Shown piece by piece: positions 4,999-45,866 of a stretch of 47,232 nt of DNA; the first letter of the stretch is position 1; every line of letters starts with the position of its first letter. The notes beneath the pieces were generated by a model. That model was not told the DNA's origin and did not search any database. It was given only the letters and a program-made list of their open reading frames with translations. This DNA comes from a virus: positions 1-47,232 of the IMG/VR virus record IMGVR_UViG_3300044699_000019, one strand, 5' to 3'. Both the position numbers and the translations under genes were made by a program.

Positions 4999-5409
4999 TT
5001 GGAAACATTCGGAATTGAAGGCAGGCCGGGAAACGTTAAGCGGGATTGCACCGTGCGAGCATTCGCGGTTGCAGCAAGGATCGATTACGATATGGCATAC
5101 TTGATGCTTGCCATGTCAGGGCGTCGTAACAATTGTGGCGCACGGATGCATGATTGGATTAAGGCATACCAAGCTATCGGCCTGTGCTTGCCTGCCGATA
5201 GGATTGATTTGTACACCGAACCGATACCCTCGGACAATGTCATCGTGCTTGTTCCCGGTCACATCTACACAATACGAAACGGCGTGCATTCGGACGGGGA
5301 GTTGGGGCCGCAAGTTCAAGTATCGGAAGTTCAGGGTGCTTGGAGAATCCCCATCGGCTTTGAACCGTGCCTCACGACTCCGGGTAGAGACAACAAGGAT
5401 AAGGAATAA
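4999..5409 (+). CDS. Putative papain-like cysteine peptidase-fold protein, 136 aa
   Basis: The start is TTG at 4999, chosen because AAAGGA (4988-4993) is 5 nt upstream and no ATG is available before the conserved region. Residues 14-42 (KRDCTVRAFAVA...YLMLAMSGRR) and 87-99 (GHIYTIRNGVHSD) match a pattern I know from small phage proteins with a cysteine-peptidase-like core: an N-terminal D-C pair (C17) and a later G-H (H88) before an N-G-V-x-x-D turn (D99). Whether it cleaves anything is unknown. It lies 4 nt before the helicase gene, so likely co-transcribed. Confidence 0.6.
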   Translation: METFGIEGRPGNVKRDCTVRAFAVAARIDYDMAYLMLAMSGRRNNCGARMHDWIKAYQAIGLCLPADRIDLYTEPIPSDNVIVLVPGHIYTIRNGVHSDGELGPQVQVSEVQGAWRIPIGFEPCLTTPGRDNKDKE

Positions 5410-5413
5410 AAGC

Positions 5414-5854
5414 ATGGCAAAATTGATTGAATTGTGCAGATACTGTGGGATGCCAGCTATCGAAAAGTCAAAGCGTCTGATAGGACCGGACACGTTTCTT
5501 ATCAAGCTTGAGTGTGGACATTCCAACATCGTTAAGATTAACAGGGCGCAGTACGATTTCATTAGCGAACGTGGCACGACACCTTTCCCGTTTCAAAAGG
5601 ATGGCATCCGTTTCATTGAAGATACGGGTTTCCGTTGTCTCATCGGCGATGAAATGGGATTGGGCAAGACGGTGCAAATGCTCGGTGCCTTGCGTCTCCA
5701 TCCTGAAATGTTGCCAGTATTGAAGATTGTGAAGTCGGGATTGAAGCGTCAGCTTGAACTCGAAACGTACAATTGGAATGGTGGCGACCCGATGATTCAA
5801 ACCATCGAGAGTCTCAAAGGAAAAGGTCTTTCCATTCCTCTGGAATATCATTAG
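5414..5854 (+). CDS. SNF2-type DNA helicase, N-terminal part (frame broken near 5820)
   Basis: ATG at 5414 starts MAKLIELCRYCGMP. An N-terminal C-x2-C...C-x-H cluster (C9, C12, C37, H39) may bind zinc. Helicase motif I is GDEMGLGKT (about residues 86-94) and motif Ia follows. After TIESLKGKG the frame runs to a stop at 5852, but the next frame reads FPFLWNIISYDTLARM directly into the second half (5874-6995). One extra base in AAAGGAAAAGG (about 5818-5828) explains the break; repaired, the gene spans 5414-6995 and encodes about 526 aa. A double-stranded DNA translocase acting in replication or recombination is expected. Confidence 0.8.
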   Translation: MAKLIELCRYCGMPAIEKSKRLIGPDTFLIKLECGHSNIVKINRAQYDFISERGTTPFPFQKDGIRFIEDTGFRCLIGDEMGLGKTVQMLGALRLHPEMLPVLKIVKSGLKRQLELETYNWNGGDPMIQTIESLKGKGLSIPLEYH

Positions 5855-5873
5855 CTACGATACGCTCGCCCGT

Positions 5874-6995
5874 ATGGATTCGGATGAGGCTGCGAAGAAG
5901 TTCAAGCATATCAAAACGATTGTGCTTGATGAGTGTCAATACATCAAGAATGAGGATGCAAAGCGTACCAATGCCGTCAGATTACTAATCAAGAAGAATG
6001 AAATCAAGCATGTCATCGCGATGAGCGGGACGCCTATCAAGAACAAGGCGGATGAATTCTTCCCGGTGCTGAACATGATTGCACCGACGAAGTTTCCTAG
6101 CAAAGCGATGATGATGAATCGGTACTTCAATTACTACATCGATGGCCAGGGTGAGTATCGAATCATCAATGCGAAGGATACGTTTTACGATGCGCTAGAC
6201 GGGATTATGATTCGGCGCACCCGTGCGGAAGTCGCTCCTGAATTGCCGACGATTCGGCGCATGTTCTTTAACTCAGAGATTGAGAATAAAGAACTCCAGC
6301 GTGCATACGGCGATGTGCAAAAGGAATTCGATGCATTCATGGAGAAGAACGACGGCGGGATTTCCGCTGCCGAATACACTAACTTGTTAGGCTTTTTCGC
6401 AAGGATGCGACGTATCACGGGCATGGCAAAGATTGGTCCGACCGTTGAATTCGTAACGGATTTCTTGCTCTCTACCGACCGGAAGATTGTAATCTTTGGT
6501 CATCACAAGGATACCTTAGAGGCTTTGAAAGAGGTACTCGATACATGGTGCGAGCAAGGCGGATGGAATAAGTGTCTGGCCCTTAAGTCATCCTTAGACG
6601 CAGACCAAAGGCAAGAGGTTGTCGAGAAGTTTAAGAATGATGCGATGTCACGAATCCTCATCGCATCTACGCTGGCTAGTGGAGAGGGATTGAATTTGCA
6701 GTTCTGTTCCGATGCAATCATGCTTGAGCGTCAATGGAATCCTGCGAATGAGGAGCAAGCCGAAACGCGCTTCACTCGATTCCGCGAAGATGGCAAGTAT
6801 GATGAGCATGTGAACGTCACGTATATGATTTCTGTCGGAACGATTGATGAGTGGCTCAGCGAACTGGTAGAAAAGAAGCGCGCCCTCATCGGAAACATTG
6901 TAGACCGTCAGGAAAACAATTGGGAAGAGTCCTCACTCATGAAGGAACTTGCATCTGTAATCTATGCTAAGGGCGGCAAGCGTTGGACTTACTAA
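5874..6995 (+). CDS. SNF2-type DNA helicase, C-terminal part
   Basis: Continuation of the gene at 5414; the open frame begins upstream of this ATG (about 5825), and the ATG itself has no RBS. Motif II is IVLDECQYIKN (a DECQ form of DEAH/DEAQ), motif III AMSGTPIKN, motif V GEGLNLQ (about residues 268-274) and motif VI QAETRFTRF. The C-terminal segment (VGTIDEWLSELVEKK) is the usual end of RecA lobe 2 in this family. All motifs needed for ATP hydrolysis are present across the two parts. Its 3' end overlaps the small gene at 6983. Confidence 0.85.
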   Translation: MDSDEAAKKFKHIKTIVLDECQYIKNEDAKRTNAVRLLIKKNEIKHVIAMSGTPIKNKADEFFPVLNMIAPTKFPSKAMMMNRYFNYYIDGQGEYRIINAKDTFYDALDGIMIRRTRAEVAPELPTIRRMFFNSEIENKELQRAYGDVQKEFDAFMEKNDGGISAAEYTNLLGFFARMRRITGMAKIGPTVEFVTDFLLSTDRKIVIFGHHKDTLEALKEVLDTWCEQGGWNKCLALKSSLDADQRQEVVEKFKNDAMSRILIASTLASGEGLNLQFCSDAIMLERQWNPANEEQAETRFTRFREDGKYDEHVNVTYMISVGTIDEWLSELVEKKRALIGNIVDRQENNWEESSLMKELASVIYAKGGKRWTY

Positions 6996-13506: not shown

Positions 13507-13593
13507 GCAGGCGTGGCGGAATATGGAATACGCAGTGGACTTAAAATCCACGGGTTAATAACCATGAGGGTTCGAGTCCCTCCGCCTGCACCA
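13507..13593 (+). tRNA. tRNA-Leu (anticodon UAA) with encoded CCA
   Basis: The acceptor arms GCAGGCG and CGCCTGC pair perfectly, followed by ACCA. The anticodon arm is GTGGA-CTTAAAA-TCCAC, giving anticodon TAA (reads UUA). The T arm GGGTTCGAGTCCC is complete, and the 13-15 nt variable arm (GGGTTAATAACC region) is long, as in Leu tRNAs. Length is 87 nt. Phage tRNAs usually supply codons rarer in the host. Confidence 0.95.
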
Positions 13594-14576: not shown

Positions 14577-14963
14577 ATGGTGCCATCAGCAACTGAGCGG
14601 TCAGCATTCATGGGCGCAATTGAACGCATCGTGAAACTACACGAAGCTAAAGCACATGACTACACCGACCATCGTGAGTTCGGAAACTTTGAAGACTCGG
14701 CCAAACATGCAGGAATCACAGTCTCACAAGCCATCGAATCTTTGATTGGAACGAAGGAAGCACGTCGTCAGAATCTAGAAAACAATAACAAACCAGCAAC
14801 GTGTGAGTCAGTTGAAGATACGTTGCTAGACCGTGCGGTCTATTGCATCATTAGATACGCACACTTTCTGTCAAGCAATGACGTTCGCGCACCGGTAAAG
14901 ATGGATGCTAGAGAAATTCGACGACATGAAGGAATGAAACAAGATGAGCGTGGCGGCTTTTGA
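14577..14963 (+). CDS. DUF1599/Nmad-like hypothetical protein, 128 aa
   Basis: CCTAGGAGAATTAA before the ATG is a strong RBS. KAHDYTDHREFGNFEDSAKH, then GTKEARRQNL and ESVEDTLLDRAVYCIIRYAH fit a family I know from phages with nucleotide-metabolism context (HDY near 27-29, K-x2-R, E-x-x-D-T-x-x-D). The all-helical metal-binding pattern resembles MazG-type pyrophosphohydrolases, so a nucleotide-pool role is plausible. It overlaps the polymerase gene by 20 nt. Confidence 0.65.
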   Translation: MVPSATERSAFMGAIERIVKLHEAKAHDYTDHREFGNFEDSAKHAGITVSQAIESLIGTKEARRQNLENNNKPATCESVEDTLLDRAVYCIIRYAHFLSSNDVRAPVKMDAREIRRHEGMKQDERGGF

Positions 14964-17346
14964 TATTCAAATAGACGTACCCGGAGAAGGTAATCCGAAT
15001 GCGGACATCGCTATCGTTGGCGAAGCGCCCGGCTCCGAAGAACAAAAGGTAGGTAGACCATTCGTTGGCCCATCTGGACACTTGCTAAATCAATTGTTAC
15101 AACAGGCAGGCATAACTAGAAGCGAATGCTGGGTGACAAATGTTGTTAAGACCGAGCCTCCGCGCACGATTAAGAATCACAAGCCAGTCTACGATATTAA
15201 GGGAGTCAGAAACTACGATGGATATAAAGAATACCTCATCCAAGAACTCAAAACAGTTAATCCTAAAATCATCCTCGCCGTTGGCAATGTCGCCTTACAA
15301 GCTCTCACTGGAAATACTGGAATCACGCAATGGCGTGGAAGTATTCTGCACTCTGACCGGCTTAACAAACGAGTCATCGCCACCTATCACCCCGCGTACA
15401 TTCTCCGTTCTGATTCCATTATCGATAAATCCATTGCTGAGTTCGACGTCCGCAGATTGGCCGAAGAAATAAATGGAACTCCCATCCCGCACCGAAGCCT
15501 TGTTGTCATTAGAGATTCCGCTCAGCTCTATCGTTTCCTTGACAGATGGAAAGACAAAAGTCTTGTTGCGTCGGACATCGAAACACACAAATCCATACCG
15601 GTTTGCTTGGGATTTGCGGCAAGCAGCCATGAAGCTATATCAATTCCTCTCTTCAATGAATTATGGGGAGTCCGATTTGCTAATTACGCTCCGAGAGAAC
15701 TCGCCGAATTCTGGAAGCTCGCCGACATACTCCTTAGAAGTAAGCGTATCCTTGGCCAAAACTGGAAGTTCGACGAATCAAAGCTGAGACAACTAGGGTT
15801 TCGTATTCCAAACCTTCACGCGGATACGATGCTCATGAGCCACACACGCTATCCTGAACTTCCAAAGGGCTTAGCTTTTCTGGCTAGTATACACACGCGA
15901 GAGCCATACTACAAACTTGAAGGCAAAGAATTCAATCCAAAGAAAGACTCAGCCGACCGTTTATACTTGTACAATGCAAAGGACTGTGCGGTAACGTATG
16001 AAATTTTCGAGACGCTCGACAGAGAGTTGGAGCAGTTTGGCGTTAGAGATTTTTACTATAACTTTGTCCATCACCTACACTCGCTTTACCTTGATATCGA
16101 GCGGCAAGGAATCCTATGTGATTTTGAGATGCGCTCGGCACTGAGCGCCAAGTATGAGGTATTGAATCAAGAAAACCAAATGATACTGGAGGACTTGATT
16201 GGACATCCCATCAACGTCGCAAGCCCAAAACAAATTGGTCAACTCATATACAATGAACTTAAGCTCCCAGCCCGCGATGGAACTGGAGAGGAGGTTCTTG
16301 TCGCTTTACAGGCTAATCACGGAGAACGGAAGCCCAAGGTCGTTCCGATTATTGACCGAATTCTTAGAGGCCGTACTATCCGAAAGACCCTTGGGACTTA
16401 CATTAACGCTTGTCCAGACTATGACGGACGGTACAGAACGTCTTATCAGATTGTTGGAACCGAGACAGGAAGAACTTCGACTCAAACTCTTAAGCCTCCT
16501 TCAAGACCTGAGCCTATCGGGCTGGCATTCCAAACCATAACAAAGCATTCATCGATTGGGCAAGACATCCTTTCGATGTTAATCGTAGACCCCGGCTACG
16601 TTTACTTAGAGGCGGACCTATCGCAAGCGGAAGCAAGAGTAGTCGATTTGTTAGCCGAAGATTACGAAGGACTCGCAGAGTATGGCTTAATCGATAAGCA
16701 CGCAAAGACAGCGCGCATCGTACTCTCTTTGGGCGACGACTTCGTGATACGAAAAGGAAGTCCCGAGAGATTCTTAGGAAAGACATCGCGCCACGCAGGC
16801 TCATACGACATGGGCAAGCATCGTGCGATGGTAACTTTCAACACGGATGCTGCGAAGTATGGCATCGACCTGCACGTTTCCGAATACAAAGCAGGCAGGA
16901 TTTTAGAACTCTTTCACGCAGCGAATCCGAAGATACGCTCGGTGTTCCACACGTCAGTGCAGAATGCATTGGCTGCAAACGAACGAACGTTGACTACACC
17001 CTTTGGCCGTCGCCGACAGTTCTCTGGCAGGTGGGGCGACCAAATGTTTAAGGAAGCCTACGCGATGATTCCCCAATCAACCGTGGGAGACACGACAAAG
17101 CGTGCAATGCTGCACGTTAAGTATCAAATCCCAGACTGCCGAATCGTGATGGAAAAGCACGATGCATTCGGCGCACTCGTCCCGATAGCCGAAGTTGATA
17201 AGTACGCAAAAGTGTTTAAGGAAGGATTGGAAATGCCCATTGATTTCTCGGGCTGTTCGATTCCAAGGGGCACCCTCATCATCCCCGCTGAATTCGAAAT
17301 TGGTGAGAAGAACCTCCATGATTTGATTGAATATAAGATATCATGA
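14944..17346 (+). CDS. Fused uracil-DNA glycosylase and DNA polymerase I (family A), 800 aa
   Basis: Residues 1-175 are a family 4-type UDG: GEAPG (26-30) with RPFVGPSG (38-45) and YHPAY (148-152). The Fe-S cysteines usual in this family are missing (KTEPP where KCRPP is typical). The 3'-5' exonuclease follows: SDIET (D211, E213), N273/D277, and YNAKD (D347). The polymerase has motif A EADLSQAEAR (D558), motif B R609-x3-K613-x3-H617-x3-Y621, and motif C KHDAF (D740). All metal-binding aspartates are present. This is the replicative polymerase; the UDG part may remove uracil or act as a template-scanning module. It overlaps the ATPase gene at 17343 by 4 nt (ATGA). Confidence 0.92.
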   Translation: MSVAAFDIQIDVPGEGNPNADIAIVGEAPGSEEQKVGRPFVGPSGHLLNQLLQQAGITRSECWVTNVVKTEPPRTIKNHKPVYDIKGVRNYDGYKEYLIQELKTVNPKIILAVGNVALQALTGNTGITQWRGSILHSDRLNKRVIATYHPAYILRSDSIIDKSIAEFDVRRLAEEINGTPIPHRSLVVIRDSAQLYRFLDRWKDKSLVASDIETHKSIPVCLGFAASSHEAISIPLFNELWGVRFANYAPRELAEFWKLADILLRSKRILGQNWKFDESKLRQLGFRIPNLHADTMLMSHTRYPELPKGLAFLASIHTREPYYKLEGKEFNPKKDSADRLYLYNAKDCAVTYEIFETLDRELEQFGVRDFYYNFVHHLHSLYLDIERQGILCDFEMRSALSAKYEVLNQENQMILEDLIGHPINVASPKQIGQLIYNELKLPARDGTGEEVLVALQANHGERKPKVVPIIDRILRGRTIRKTLGTYINACPDYDGRYRTSYQIVGTETGRTSTQTLKPPSRPEPIGLAFQTITKHSSIGQDILSMLIVDPGYVYLEADLSQAEARVVDLLAEDYEGLAEYGLIDKHAKTARIVLSLGDDFVIRKGSPERFLGKTSRHAGSYDMGKHRAMVTFNTDAAKYGIDLHVSEYKAGRILELFHAANPKIRSVFHTSVQNALAANERTLTTPFGRRRQFSGRWGDQMFKEAYAMIPQSTVGDTTKRAMLHVKYQIPDCRIVMEKHDAFGALVPIAEVDKYAKVFKEGLEMPIDFSGCSIPRGTLIIPAEFEIGEKNLHDLIEYKIS

Positions 17347-35888: not shown

Positions 35889-36357
35889 TTGGAATTCCTG
35901 GGTTAACGATGGCTTCACCTACGTGAAGTTGCATCGACATTGGAGAGCATTCGCTTTGCAGAAATTGATGAACTTTGTCCACCGCTCGCTCGTATTCGTC
36001 CAATTCTTCCTTGACGAGGTCGCGCTTCTTTCGTTCACCAAACAACTGCAAATGCACGAATGAAAGAACGACATCTTCGGAAACGATAATAGGCCGGTCA
36101 TCTGGCTTCTTAAACACGAAGATGGGTTCATACGAGACATTGCGTCCCGGTAACAACTCAGCGTTGGGACCGCTGACAGGCATTAACTTCTCAATTACCC
36201 AATATACGGCATTGAAGTAATTGTACTTCTTTGTCAGAATAACTGACGGGCCTACTCTACGGTATTCTAACTGGTCGGTTCGTGCCAGACGGAAAATCTG
36301 GTTTCCATCTAGAATACCAAACCGCTCCAATTTCTTGTTGATGTAGACATCGTTCAC
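35785..36357 (-). CDS. Hypothetical virion-module protein, 190 aa
   Basis: MNDVYINKKLERFGILD begins the protein; it has a mixed alpha/beta core (YNYFNAVYWVIEKLM; VVLSFVHLQLFGERKK) and a disordered Ser/Gly/Asp-rich tail (TGPVGTARSDSSGSDE). The tail overlaps the next gene by 104 nt and may be an out-of-frame extension. It overlaps the metallopeptidase stop by 4 nt. No family recognised. Confidence 0.55.
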   Translation of the reverse strand: MNDVYINKKLERFGILDGNQIFRLARTDQLEYRRVGPSVILTKKYNYFNAVYWVIEKLMPVSGPNAELLPGRNVSYEPIFVFKKPDDRPIIVSEDVVLSFVHLQLFGERKKRDLVKEELDEYERAVDKVHQFLQSECSPMSMQLHVGEAIVNPGIPNGRRDVSVPSPEGNSGIETGPVGTARSDSSGSDE

Positions 36358-37130
36358 CGTTTATTCGACCTCCTTGCTAACGCTAACTTCCTCATTGATT
36401 CATATGACTGCGGATAATTAACATACCAATTAGGAGCAGGGCCATTGTTAAAGAAGAAATCATCATCTTCCTTCCAACGTTTAGCGTCCATTGCTGCCAT
36501 AGACGCTTGACCTTCTTCCCTGCGGCCTCGATTGACACTTCTAATTTCTACAGCGTCAGCAAGTTGTTCACCGGGACGTTGGTCATGTGGAGTAAAGAAG
36601 CTTCCATAATGTTCAGCATTACGTTCACGCTCTGGAAATTGCTTATTCTGAGCGGCGTGAGCTAATTCATGTGCAAGTGTCGATTCTAAATTCTCACGGT
36701 CTTTTCCCCAATTTTCATCTATATTTATTGCGTTATTGTAATGGTTATAGCTTCCAACTTTACTTGGCATAAGTGGTTTAGCTTCTACGGCATTTACTAA
36801 ATTCTGTGCATAAGGATATCGTTCAATCATTCTACCCCACCCCGGTGCAATCCTTGGGTCTACTACCGGCTTTTCACGCAATGGTGGAGTGTATGTTCCC
36901 GTCGGTGGTGCTGTTCTCGTACCTAAATAAATCTCATCAAGATTCGAAGGATAAGGCGCGTCTGCCGGCGGTCTGGGCGCGGTGACGTTTACTTCTTCCT
37001 GCGACTGCAAAGCTCTTGGCTCTTGAGGTAAGCCAAACAACGAACGACCAAAATCTGATGAACCCCATGGACTTGCATAGGAGTTATCACCGAGTTTGTA
37101 TAAGTAATCATAATCGTCGTTGTCTGGCAT
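36354..37130 (-). CDS. HExxH zinc metallopeptidase-like virion-module protein, 258 aa
   Basis: Residues 151-160 read TLAHELAHAA: H154, E155 and H158 form the zincin HExxH site. A third ligand may come from GEQLADAVE (E188 or D192/E195). Residues 1-90 are polar and Pro-rich (NVTAPRPPADAPYPSN), likely disordered. The N-terminal acidic segment (MPDNDDYDYLYK) resembles those of ejected proteins. It lies between the PDNSLPG protein and other head-tail genes, so it may process virion proteins or act on host surface proteins after release. Substrate unknown. Confidence 0.7.
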   Translation of the reverse strand: MPDNDDYDYLYKLGDNSYASPWGSSDFGRSLFGLPQEPRALQSQEEVNVTAPRPPADAPYPSNLDEIYLGTRTAPPTGTYTPPLREKPVVDPRIAPGWGRMIERYPYAQNLVNAVEAKPLMPSKVGSYNHYNNAINIDENWGKDRENLESTLAHELAHAAQNKQFPERERNAEHYGSFFTPHDQRPGEQLADAVEIRSVNRGRREEGQASMAAMDAKRWKEDDDFFFNNGPAPNWYVNYPQSYESMRKLALARRSNKR

Positions 37131-37142
37131 ACCATTTATCCT

Positions 37143-37625
37143 TTACCGACGAGACTTCGGTTCCGGCGTTTCCGGAAGCGTATTATCCGGCGTTCCGCCC
37201 GTACCAGGAAGCGTGTTATCTACGCCCGGCTGCGTACCCGGAAGCGAATTATCCGGGACAAGAACCAATCCGATGCACGCAATCCACTTCACGATAAAAC
37301 GCATACCGGGACGCGGCGGCCATACCACGGGGGGAACGGGAATCGTGTTATTCGGAGGATTCCCACCGCCACCCGGCAGTGAATTGTCTGGCTTTTCCCC
37401 GCCCGGTGCGATTGGCTGAGTTGGGTCAAACGGAAGTACCGGAAGCTGAATAGCCTGCGGAGGCATTCCCGGAAGAGAGTTATCAGGACGCCCCGGAAAT
37501 CCCGGAAGGGAATTGTCAGGATATCCACCGCCCGGCAAACCGTGCGAAGGATAAACTGGAACACCCGGCAATGAATTGTCAGGAAGAGCATCGCCGTACA
37601 GAATGACCGCACGAATAGCTGGCAT
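37143..37625 (-). CDS. PDNSLPG-repeat protein, 160 aa
   Basis: Five exact PDNSLPG motifs (residues about 15-135), plus near copies VDNTLPG, PDNTLPE and NNTIPV, embedded in Pro/Gly-rich sequence. One short hydrophobic run (RFIVKWIACIGLVLV) near residue 108 could be a membrane segment. The RBS is AAGGAG upstream of the ATG at 37625. Low-complexity repeat proteins just downstream of capsid genes can be head decorations or fibre-like spikes. The protein is not recognised by me as a named family. Confidence 0.65.
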   Translation of the reverse strand: MPAIRAVILYGDALPDNSLPGVPVYPSHGLPGGGYPDNSLPGFPGRPDNSLPGMPPQAIQLPVLPFDPTQPIAPGGEKPDNSLPGGGGNPPNNTIPVPPVVWPPRPGMRFIVKWIACIGLVLVPDNSLPGTQPGVDNTLPGTGGTPDNTLPETPEPKSRR

Positions 37626-37650: not shown

Positions 37651-37698
37651 GGCCGGGCATACCGAAAGGGGGAAATCGGCTTGGAAGTATGCCCGGCC
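37651..37698 (-). terminator. Strong hairpin upstream of the PDNSLPG-repeat gene
   Basis: GGCCGGGCATAC (37651-37662) pairs perfectly with GTATGCCCGGCC (37687-37698), with an inner CCGA/TCGG stem. It abuts the next hairpin without a gap. On the minus strand it lies after the PEP-CTERM gene and before the RBS at about 37634. Confidence 0.75.
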
Positions 37699-37734
37699 CT
37701 AGTTAGCTACCACGGAAGGAACGTAGCTAACTAG
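37699..37734 (-). terminator. Perfect 12-bp hairpin overlapping the PEP-CTERM stop codon
   Basis: CTAGTTAGCTAC (37699-37710) and GTAGCTAACTAG (37723-37734) pair perfectly around a 12-nt loop. The stop codon (37731-37733) lies in its arm. It forms a tandem pair with 37651-37698, so transcription is likely cut or the RNA 3' end protected here. Confidence 0.7.
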
Positions 37735-38402
37735 TTTCTCCGACGCAGGAATCCCGCACCAAGCATTCCCAATCCCAAGAGAACCATACTCGTTGGTTCT
37801 GGTACGCTCTGCGGACATGCCGGTGGACATGGCGGCGGAGGCGTAGTCAAACCACGAATCAAAAACGCTTGGTCAGGACCATCGTTCGAAACTGGCATAA
37901 TCGCGTGGAAGCGAACAATGTCAGTTAACGCATATCCCGACAAATCGAATCCGGTGAGCACGTAATCAGCGAATCCATTTCCAGCATTGCCTGCTGGCGT
38001 AGGTGGAACAGCCTGAGGTCCAACCCAAATGTCCGCTACGTTTCCATTCACAGTCATCGCAAACAAACCTAACACTTGGTCAGGCTGTCCCTGTGCCTGT
38101 GAAAAATCCAAACCCACACGGAAGTTGTCGCCAAACAGCAATCGGATTCCAGCCACCGTATAACCCGGTGACGTTAAATCCCAACTGATGTTCTCTCCAA
38201 CATTACCCGTGGGAGTCTGCGTAAACGCATTAATTTCCGTGGTCGTGCGGGAATTGCAATCATTCCCACCAAGTAAACACGGATTGTTTGTCTGCTGCTG
38301 GAGCGGGTCATTCAATGCAACCGCTGACAGCGTGAGCGGCCCCCCGTACGCTGAACTTGCAAGTGCTAACAGCGCAACCGCTAATCCTACCCGAATTCGC
38401 AT
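37731..38402 (-). CDS. PEP-CTERM exported protein, 223 aa (apparent moron)
   Basis: The N terminus (MRIRVGLAVALLALASSAYG) is a signal peptide with a likely cut after G20. The C terminus has VPEP (200-203), a hydrophobic segment (MVLLGLGMLGAGF) and RRRN: the tripartite PEP-CTERM signal recognised by exosortases of Gram-negative bacteria for surface sorting. The middle is beta-rich with a Cys pair near 42-49 and a Pro/Cys-rich linker (TTPPPPCPPACPQ). It lies between capsid and repeat protein genes, with a terminator on each side, which is how phage morons are set. Probably expressed to alter the host surface or exploit exosortase. Confidence 0.88.
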   Translation of the reverse strand: MRIRVGLAVALLALASSAYGGPLTLSAVALNDPLQQQTNNPCLLGGNDCNSRTTTEINAFTQTPTGNVGENISWDLTSPGYTVAGIRLLFGDNFRVGLDFSQAQGQPDQVLGLFAMTVNGNVADIWVGPQAVPPTPAGNAGNGFADYVLTGFDLSGYALTDIVRFHAIMPVSNDGPDQAFLIRGLTTPPPPCPPACPQSVPEPTSMVLLGLGMLGAGFLRRRN

Positions 38403-38425: not shown

Positions 38426-38452
38426 GGGGCGAGATTTTTCATGTCTCACCCC
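38426..38452 (-). terminator. Terminator after the major capsid gene
   Basis: GGGGCGAGA (38426-38434) pairs with TCTCACCCC (38444-38452) with one G-T pair; on the minus strand it is followed by AAATTTTC. It starts 7 nt after the capsid stop and just before the PEP-CTERM gene. Confidence 0.75.
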
Positions 38453-38459
38453 GTTGTTG

Positions 38460-39740
38460 TTACGCGTAACCTGCCGGGATGGCGAGGTTGTCAATGTATG
38501 CATTTTCCTGCGGGTTGCTGGTAAAAAGATTCCAGCTAGAAACCAAGTACAGCAAGGTGGACGTCGCAACGCCACCATCCTGACCGCGAACTTCGAATAA
38601 CTTTCGACCATCCGCGGTGTAGAATCCCGGCTTCTTGAGTTCAGCGCGACCCCAAGAATCCATGTTCAGAAAATCGATTCGACGCTTGTCCCACTTGAAC
38701 GACTGCTGAACAGTTACGCCAGCCATCGTCATTGAGCCACCGAAATACAAATCGAATCCCTGATTCGAGCCACCTTTATCAATCGTTGTTACCAGCATAC
38801 CCAAAGATTCGTATGCTGCGGCCTGCGCCGGATGCAACCACGCCTTGATATTCGGCTTCTTCGTGCTCCCTGACCTATCGCCCAAAAGATTCAAGGCAAG
38901 TCTCGGGAACGGCAAAGATAATCCAGAGCCGCCGGCATCAACTCGGCTCGCCCTGATTGCTGGCGTTGAACTTCTCGGGAATCCTAACCAAACGCCCGAA
39001 GAAGAATTGTTCACATGATACGGCACGCCTAATAAACTAATTGGCGAGGGTCCCGTGACACCTTCAATGACAATCTTATCGCCAACAGCAGCAGCTACGG
39101 CTGGCGTTGCGTGTTTAATTGTCTTTGTCGGCACGTCACGATACGTAATCTCAACTTCACCACCCGGTGCCGTAGTCTTCTGAGTCTGAAGGTCAGAGCT
39201 ATAAATGTTAATGCGCTGCCCTTCCATCAAAAGCTTCACACCGAAATCAACATCGAGAACTGTCGTATCTACGCTGGCGGCTGTTGAAGTAGCAGTAATG
39301 GTTCCTAAAACACCATTACCACCCGTCATGCACATTGAATCCATATGCGCACGGAAGTGAGGCATTGCAGCGGCCATGTTCTTGTTGAAGACGTTAATGA
39401 CCGCCTTCGCATCGCCCTGCGTTGTCCACTCCGCTTCCTTCGTCCATTCCAGTGCATACCTGAAATCAACGGTCGGAACGAGCGCATTTTCGTACCTTGG
39501 GCCGCTACCTCGACCAAGATTTCCACCGTTCGGGTCATACTGTCCAAAGTACCCACCCGGTGCAAACTGAATTGGAACCTTCATATCCCGTGCGTTCACG
39601 GGAATTGCCTGCGTAGATTTCTCGACCTGAGAATAGAATGTATCCTCTACCTCGTAGAGAACCTCAATCTTCTTCTCGACACGTTCAAGCTGAACTGCAA
39701 GAACGTCAGCTGTATTCTGAGGATTGGGAACAAAGGCCAC
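38460..39740 (-). CDS. Major capsid protein, 426 aa
   Basis: Starts at GTG 39740, with GGGAGA 7 nt upstream; no ATG fits. Size, place right after the scaffold, and features such as PIQFAPGGYFGQYDPNGG, FRYALEWTKEAEW and the late DFLNMDSWGRAELKKPG are those of podoviral capsid proteins of the HK97 fold. It is abundant, so the GTG start is noteworthy but the RBS is good. A terminator-like hairpin after the gene isolates its transcript. Confidence 0.85.
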   Translation of the reverse strand: MAFVPNPQNTADVLAVQLERVEKKIEVLYEVEDTFYSQVEKSTQAIPVNARDMKVPIQFAPGGYFGQYDPNGGNLGRGSGPRYENALVPTVDFRYALEWTKEAEWTTQGDAKAVINVFNKNMAAAMPHFRAHMDSMCMTGGNGVLGTITATSTAASVDTTVLDVDFGVKLLMEGQRINIYSSDLQTQKTTAPGGEVEITYRDVPTKTIKHATPAVAAAVGDKIVIEGVTGPSPISLLGVPYHVNNSSSGVWLGFPRSSTPAIRASRVDAGGSGLSLPFPRLALNLLGDRSGSTKKPNIKAWLHPAQAAAYESLGMLVTTIDKGGSNQGFDLYFGGSMTMAGVTVQQSFKWDKRRIDFLNMDSWGRAELKKPGFYTADGRKLFEVRGQDGGVATSTLLYLVSSWNLFTSNPQENAYIDNLAIPAGYA

Positions 39741-44115: not shown

Positions 44116-44280
44116 GAACATTACTTTGTTGCTGAGTTCCGCGTATCTTTCCCGTTCACGGTTCAATTCAGATTCAAGATGCGTGACTTGACGCGTTAAG
44201 TATTCCTCAAGTTCAGTGAACTTAGGTGGAACGAAAACCACTCGGAGGAATCTTAACAACGCCCACCATATATTTATCAT
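44053..44280 (-). CDS. Small membrane-anchored coiled-coil protein, N-terminal part
   Basis: ATG at 44280 overlaps the TerL stop as ATGA. Residues 1-18 (MINIWWALLRFLRVVFVP) are hydrophobic with two arginines, a possible membrane anchor, followed by a coiled coil (ELEEYLTRQVTHLESELNRE). The end after VMFPE is out of frame (see 43905). An N-terminal anchor plus coiled coil is also the layout of Rz-type inner spanins, but this position near TerL and lack of an Rz1 partner make that weak. Confidence 0.55.
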   Translation of the reverse strand: MINIWWALLRFLRVVFVPPKFTELEEYLTRQVTHLESELNRERERYAELSNKVMFPEDNVRTNPSRSAYLRCASQ

Positions 44281-45866
44281 CGTCGCCGTGGCCTTACGGA
44301 GAATGCGGGTTGTTTGATGGTGTCCGCCTCTCGCGCTTTCATATAGAAGGCGGTCATGTCGCCACGCTTCTTGCCTTCATTGTATTCACGCTCCATACGT
44401 GCGAGATGGTCGAATCGTTTCGCTGCTGCGAAGCTCGAATCCTTATATCGTGAGCACGCTTGGAGAATGTACCTTATACCATCGTACGGGTCATCGCCCT
44501 CAAATTCCTTAACATCCTCTGGATTCTCAGGGTCGTATACACAATTCGGAATCGCATCGATGACCGCTTGACAGTTATCGAAGATTTGCAGCTTTGGTAA
44601 ATTCGTTTCAGGCGGTTCCTCTTCAAAGGCTGCGACGTATTTGTCATACTGATGCTGGCCGTAATTCCTTAGGATTCTTGCGGCCAATTCTGCATCAAAA
44701 CTTCCAGCAGCCTCTTTAGTTCTTGGCTTAGGGGTCCAGCGGAGATAGTCATGAAGGAGTAGCTTTCCCCCGATTCGGTCGTTAATTGCCCGCTCAGGAA
44801 CGTATCCTGAGTATTGCGTAAACTGCTGGTCGATAGTTTCAATTCCGCGATTTTGCCACGCTGAAGGGTCGAGAGCCACTGACTCAAGGTTGTCATCTGC
44901 GCTGAGTCGTTTGAAGTCACTGGCCCACTCCGCAATCATCTTACGTTTTTGGAAGTATTCTCGATAGAGGTAAACTCTTCCATCGGGAGCAATAGCTGCC
45001 CATCCAATCCAAACGTGAGCGGCAAATCCCCAATCGATTGCCGCCACGCGCGGCCACCAGATAGGAAGTGTAAACGGCTCGATGACATGTCTAGCATTTG
45101 AAGGTTCATCGGGCAAAGGCTCCAATCGGAAACTGAATACTTGTCCTTCGAAAGTATACCAGTCTCCATATTTCTTTGCCCGTCGTTCAGCTTCAGTTGG
45201 AAGCATCTCCAACTTGTGTATATACGTGGGGTCGTTCTCTAACAGATGCTTGTTATCTTCGACTCGCGCTGGTAGATAGAATCGTTTGAGGCCAGTCTTC
45301 TTATCTACTAGGACGGTGAGGCCGTCTCGCGCAGGGTCTACGAATCTATTTCGTACCCACGTATGACCAACGTTTCCAGGATTGCTCCCGGCTCTTGAAA
45401 TAGCTGGTAGTTGCGATGTCGATGACCTAACACGGGAGGCGACAAGATAAAGGTATTGATACTGCGTGAAGTGAGTGAGTTCGTCCCATCCCACGTAATT
45501 GTATTCAACACCATCGTATTTACTAATATCCTTCTCATGCTCTGCGTGTCCGAATGCTTGGTATCCGCCGTTCGGAAACGTCCATCGTTTCTTCTGTTCA
45601 TTATACTTTGCACCCGTTGAAGCATACCATTGTTTCGACCGAACGATGATTTCAGCTTCTAATTCAGGAAAGGTTCGCCGCAAGATGAGACCTTTGTATC
45701 TTGGGTGCTGATGCCATCCACGAATCAATGGCAACATGTATAAGATTTCGGTCTTTCCTGGTCCTGCGGCTCCCCCGTATAATGCTTCAAAGATGGTATC
45801 GGGTAATGTAACGAACGTCTCCTGTTTACGAGTAGGCGTCCATTCGAGTGTGGCAGGTGTTTCCAT
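44277..45866 (-). CDS. terL: Terminase large subunit (TerL), 529 aa
   Basis: The DNA-packaging motor. Walker A GGAAGPGKT (31-39), Walker B NYVGWDEL (123-130) with D128/E129, coupling motif SNPGNVGHTW (161-170), and the RNase H-like nuclease with D278 (AAIDWGF), D333 (VALDPSAW) and D462 (DPYDGIRY). All catalytic residues are present. The ATG at 45866 has no Shine-Dalgarno match upstream (CAAATTGTA), which is unusual for this gene; two long inverted repeats in the 182-nt gap before it may control translation. Confidence 0.93.
   Translation of the reverse strand: METPATLEWTPTRKQETFVTLPDTIFEALYGGAAGPGKTEILYMLPLIRGWHQHPRYKGLILRRTFPELEAEIIVRSKQWYASTGAKYNEQKKRWTFPNGGYQAFGHAEHEKDISKYDGVEYNYVGWDELTHFTQYQYLYLVASRVRSSTSQLPAISRAGSNPGNVGHTWVRNRFVDPARDGLTVLVDKKTGLKRFYLPARVEDNKHLLENDPTYIHKLEMLPTEAERRAKKYGDWYTFEGQVFSFRLEPLPDEPSNARHVIEPFTLPIWWPRVAAIDWGFAAHVWIGWAAIAPDGRVYLYREYFQKRKMIAEWASDFKRLSADDNLESVALDPSAWQNRGIETIDQQFTQYSGYVPERAINDRIGGKLLLHDYLRWTPKPRTKEAAGSFDAELAARILRNYGQHQYDKYVAAFEEEPPETNLPKLQIFDNCQAVIDAIPNCVYDPENPEDVKEFEGDDPYDGIRYILQACSRYKDSSFAAAKRFDHLARMEREYNEGKKRGDMTAFYMKAREADTIKQPAFSVRPRRR

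Follow-up and report, generated by a model that had tools for sequence, protein, structure and literature searches.

The window analysed here, the whole stretch of 47232 bases, is an IMG/VR virus record from a soil bacteriophage. Its left part carries on the plus strand a UDG/DNA polymerase A gene, a Sak4-like gene, pieces of a helicase and nucleases; its right part carries on the minus strand the large terminase (44277-45866), which marks the virion module, a capsid-like gene and the tail genes. Several features of the left part can be read in more detail. A tRNA-Leu (taa) gene lies in the early region at 13507-13593, and the gene at 14944-17346 joins an N-terminal uracil-DNA glycosylase domain (PF03167) to a family A DNA polymerase (PF00476). 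Two adjoining ORFs at 5108-6995 correspond to consecutive parts (682-765 and 804-1151) of the helicase family phrog_62 and make up a split helicase gene, with an intron, a frameshift or a sequencing error perhaps as the cause. The G+C content of the phage is ∼49%, which alone is uninformative about the host.

The gene of interest is a minus-strand ORF at 37731-38402, which starts with ATG and encodes 223 amino acids. It lies between the gene for the major capsid protein (MCP) upstream (38460-39740, minus strand; phrog_14242, E = 6.5e-5) and, downstream, a gene at 37143-37625 (minus strand) for a 160-residue protein with PDNSLPG repeats. This is followed at 36354-37130 (minus strand) by a SprT-like metallopeptidase-type gene, for which the best Pfam score is slightly under the cut-off.

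The 223-residue product is laid out as MRIRVGLAVALLALASSAYG, an ectodomain and VPEPTSMVLLGLGMLGAGFLRRRN. The first of these, approximately residues 1-20 (38343-38402, minus strand), is a predicted Sec-type signal peptide: inspection of the sequence and a hydropathy rule find a basic N-terminal end, a hydrophobic core and small residues ahead of the likely cut. The ectodomain follows at approximately residues 21-198 (37809-38342, minus strand), as delimited by sequence comparison and a structure model. Pro41, Cys42, Gly46, Asp99, Asp146, Tyr147, Asp174 and Gly175 are invariant in this domain across nine viral members of the family, and β-strands dominate it in the predicted structure. The model is of moderate confidence (pLDDT 66.8), and a fold comparison with it returned no match at E below 0.001. 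Residues 199-223 (37734-37808, minus strand) form the PEP-CTERM sorting signal, with the VPEP motif, a hydrophobic helix modelled at residues 203-222 and an RRR tail. This tag scores 29.5 bits against PF07589 in Pfam (cut-off 20.7) and 26 bits against TIGR02595 in NCBIfam (curated cut-off 16), and none of 14 control genomes has a PF07589 match above its cut-off. The passes with both models and the silence of the control genomes confirm the observation beyond chance. The preliminary description of this DNA, made from the letters alone, had recognized a PEP-CTERM protein here and named a C-terminal score under the cut-off as grounds for dropping the idea; with both curated cut-offs exceeded and the signal peptide, VPEP, hydrophobic segment and RRR tail all present, we regard the protein as a genuine member of this class.

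A protein 76-80% identical to that of the window is encoded in two other contigs, each from a different metagenome, and in both the PDNSLPG gene is next to it, as in the window. In IMGVR_UViG_3300015371_001268 (loci L002 and L016) the order MCP, PEP-CTERM, PDNSLPG is the same and the MCP is 67% identical. The other, IMGVR_UViG_3300020020_000056 (L003), is a distant phage, with the terminase 41%, the portal 34% and the scaffold protein 26% identical and the PEP-CTERM protein 80% identical; here the two genes are located upstream of the terminase and not after the capsid gene. The recurrence of the three-gene order and of the pair in contigs from other metagenomes rules out a chimeric assembly join, which the preliminary description had raised as an alternative. 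No relative of the window protein was found among named phages or plasmids, nor any among named phages for the PEP-CTERM proteins of L030 and L100.

Neither the PEP-CTERM gene nor the PDNSLPG gene is present in the nearest relatives by capsid (82-83% identical), where the post-capsid site is empty or occupied by a peptidase gene or an HNH-like gene. The SprT-like metallopeptidase-type gene directly follows the capsid gene in L004-L008, which do not have the pair; in L009-L012 the site that the pair occupies in the window holds a 162-residue HNH-like protein, the type of which was judged from the sequence only. As the pair is absent from this site in relatives and sits elsewhere in L003, it behaves as a movable cassette. 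The unit is thus present or absent at one site in collinear relatives, or found at different sites, as is required of a moron. The suggestion that the gene is a moron from a host gains from this absence and relocation, and from host-type ectodomain homologues in alphaproteobacterial chromosomes (described below); it needs amending in that the gene is paired and does not travel as a lone gene.

Strong hairpins flank the PEP-CTERM gene. One lies between it and the capsid gene (38426-38452, minus strand; z = -2.33) and two lie between it and the PDNSLPG gene (37700-37733 and 37651-37698, together 37651-37733, minus strand; z = -4.38, no U tract). Each of the three phages (L002, L003 and that of the window) has strong hairpins on either side of the gene, with z from -2.3 to -4.7 and none with a clear U tract. 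A scan of the window for promoters and terminators gave nothing above chance and did not call these hairpins. The earlier proposal of terminators on both sides therefore stands as far as the hairpins are concerned and lacks support as to their being true terminators; they may terminate transcription weakly or serve as processing sites.

The PDNSLPG protein of the window has its repeats arranged around a conserved core, RFIVKWIACIGLVLVPDNSLPG, and has no Pfam or PHROG match. At least 139 viral-contig stretches contain relatives. When 78 PDNSLPG-carrying records were scanned, 13 had a PF07589 match above the cut-off, and in seven of these 13 the PEP-CTERM and PDNSLPG genes are adjacent, in either order. 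A DNA motif scan for PEP-CTERM genes, blind to PDNSLPG, recovered at least 120 viral stretches, partly non-independent and some from contigs already met; a pattern rule finds a PEP-CTERM-type ORF in 118 of them, with several unrelated ectodomains. Among the matches listed, 28 of these 118 stretches have a PDNSLPG-type frame on the same strand within 1.5 kb; only two of 30 PDNSLPG-type frames, again among the matches listed (1.15 Mb), lie away from PEP-CTERM genes. The proteins fall, among the matches listed, into one family of 77 sequences, a family of 12 that includes the window protein, and numerous small families. The N-terminus is hydrophobic with a basic start in 147 of the 168 PEP-CTERM-type ORFs of the fetched loci, and many of the other 21 are fragmentary or cut by a contig edge. 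PEP-CTERM genes stand two or three in a row in some viral contigs (L199, L205, L209, L215, L122 and L177), of which some combine the window's family with a second one. The large neighbours of a PEP-CTERM or PDNSLPG gene that were tested in seven further contigs proved to be terminase or portal genes, so these are phage regions and host contamination is ruled out for them. The gene is consequently not the single-gene curiosity that it first appeared to be: PEP-CTERM genes recur across many viral contigs, and that of the window has a PDNSLPG-repeat gene as a partner.

An ectodomain-only profile matched proteins in three of 289 genomes from the class of Sabulicella (Alphaproteobacteria), and two of these three genomes encode an exosortase. 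The best bacterial homologue (L260) is 38.5% identical to the window protein (E = 2e-35) and has the C-terminal end VPEPASLALLGAGLVALGIARRKLS; no evident phage gene is present within the 3.5 kb seen around it. The large viral family likewise has relatives in Sabulicella and Roseococcus, in genomes that encode an exosortase. A single group of the phage sequences has low support in a tree (42/40). The Family-A profile gave no match in 369 genomes from the class of a Nitrosomonas or in 246 from the phylum of a Planctomycetales MAG, where an empty answer means little, and a scan of genome contigs with the three closest sequences confirmed nothing. On the phage side, searches for an exosortase found none in the window and none in 50 viral contigs (30-228 kb) with PEP-CTERM genes, these contigs being fragments in which absence is no proof. 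We thus set aside a phage-encoded exosortase, and processing of the tag would depend on the host. The window gene most likely encodes a host-derived late surface protein that is processed by the host exosortase.

The ectodomain is under strong purifying selection: its dN/dS is about 0.04-0.10 (NG86, where computable), close to the values for capsid and terminase. Synonymous sites between the phage copies are near or past saturation, so these phages did not acquire the gene recently; it is old in them and maintained. These values bear on two other readings of the gene. It could be passive cargo, a gene from a host that gives the phage no benefit, as its patchy distribution and its absence from the closest capsid relatives might suggest; purifying selection, the repeated association with PDNSLPG genes and the presence of such genes in many unrelated viral contigs all argue against this, and we consider it very improbable. 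A protein made late could alternatively act as a decoy, as had been suggested at the outset, competing with host substrates for the exosortase and blocking the installation of host surface proteins. The tag is indeed kept while the ectodomains vary between phages, but a decoy that acts through its tag alone does not predict a strongly conserved ectodomain and is disfavoured by it; we give this idea little credence.

Our best explanation as a whole, which we favour with slightly better than even confidence, is that phages have adopted a host exosortase substrate in a movable cassette and use it to alter the surface of the infected cell. Phages would have taken over a host-derived substrate and kept it in a small movable unit with the PDNSLPG-repeat gene. 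The protein would be made late in infection together with the virion genes. Judging from its anatomy, it would then be exported by the Sec system and retained in the inner membrane by the VPEP, helix and RRR tag, until the host exosortase cuts off the tag and transfers the ectodomain to the exopolysaccharide and surface of the cell. Most likely, receptors would thereby be masked or the bound polysaccharide altered, and sibling phages and new progeny would fail to stick to the infected cell or its debris, or aggregation would shift. Within this explanation, we favour lowered adsorption through receptor masking or altered polysaccharide, with control of aggregation as the main rival. Against it, late synthesis gives surface remodelling little time before lysis, only the tag and not the ectodomain of the window protein matches the PepA model, and the modelled ectodomain has no significant fold match.

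The tag and its setting invite comparison with the PEP-CTERM/exosortase (EpsH) system of Gram-negative bacteria. The signal peptide, PEP motif, hydrophobic helix and basic tail are shared, the window tag is above the PF07589 and TIGR02595 cut-offs, and the ectodomain homologues are alphaproteobacterial; the substrate in the window differs in lying in a phage virion module beside a PDNSLPG gene, with no phage exosortase found. Small phage genes for exported surface proteins that are dispensable in relatives are also familiar as surface-altering morons, such as that for the T5 lipoprotein Llp, which alters the host surface. The difference is that a lipoprotein or membrane anchor is used there, whereas the window protein has an exosortase tag. 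Environmental bacteria commonly have PEP-CTERM proteins, most of which are not known to have a role. They have been proposed to anchor polysaccharide at the cell surface (PMC12188702), and overexpression of PepA is described as lowering soluble and raising cell-bound exopolysaccharide and restoring flocs (PMC9850573); we count both, and the weak PepA-model matches of several other phage ectodomains, in favour of our best explanation.

PepA (NF033554; Zoogloea and Aquincola) is an exported PEP-CTERM protein of similar size, and it is the model for an alternative that we think possible though rather unlikely. The phage protein may be a matrix or aggregation factor that binds host exopolysaccharide and alters clumping or the release of infected cells, with the result that progeny are released close to neighbouring cells or get out of the matrix; receptor masking would play no part. 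PepA acts in this way in Aquincola (PMC9850573), and some contigs have tandem PEP-CTERM genes. Several viral families resemble the PepA ectodomain in part, with up to 39.9 bits, although all phage matches are below the 80-bit cut-off of the model; against this reading, the window protein reaches 30.5 bits through its tag only, and its ectodomain has no match to the model. A further proposal is that the product is a virion or lysis component that decorates particles or helps to open the envelope, the PEP-CTERM helix being a mere membrane anchor. The gene does adjoin capsid, terminase or portal genes, and the PDNSLPG partner has no evident signal peptide and could itself be a virion protein. The signal peptide of the PEP-CTERM protein would, however, direct it away from cytoplasmic assembly, the tag is above the sorting-signal cut-offs, and the bacterial homologues are stand-alone chromosomal genes. 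We judge this component improbable and, because the protein carries an export signal, attachment to virions, which was among the roles first suggested together with superinfection exclusion and competition for the exosortase, to be the least likely of these functional proposals.

To return to the altered cell surface, the occurrence of PEP-CTERM genes in many uncultured phages, often beside a PDNSLPG gene, suggests that these phages reshape the surface of the cells that they infect. A more ambitious version, to which we would give not quite an even chance, is a widespread two-gene module in which an exosortase substrate and a PDNSLPG protein as its functional partner act through the host exosortase to remake the surface or the matrix of the soil bacteria that are infected. 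The parts are of known kinds; what is new is their combination, a host-type exosortase substrate that phages keep in a movable pair. We found no description of phage-encoded PEP-CTERM proteins in the open-licence literature, judged mostly from titles, abstracts and passages, and the module, if real, would be a general phage strategy undescribed in the literature searched. That phage copies are under purifying selection suggests that PEP-CTERM proteins are of importance on the surface of the infected cell; the phage genes also provide small, separable test genes. A PEP-CTERM gene in a phage also predicts an exosortase in its host and could aid in assigning hosts to uncultured phages; the exosortase status of bacteria possibly influences the success of phages in soils and flocs.

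The PDNSLPG proteins, in addition, point to a large family in phages that has yet to be named. No relative of those of L002 and L100 was found among named phages. The proteins of the family, in the window and in L021-L100, have cores such as YVVKWLACxGLILVPDN and no Pfam or PHROG match was found for them; in a second subtype, a core of this type is replaced by WVIVWVPGYGYRYV.
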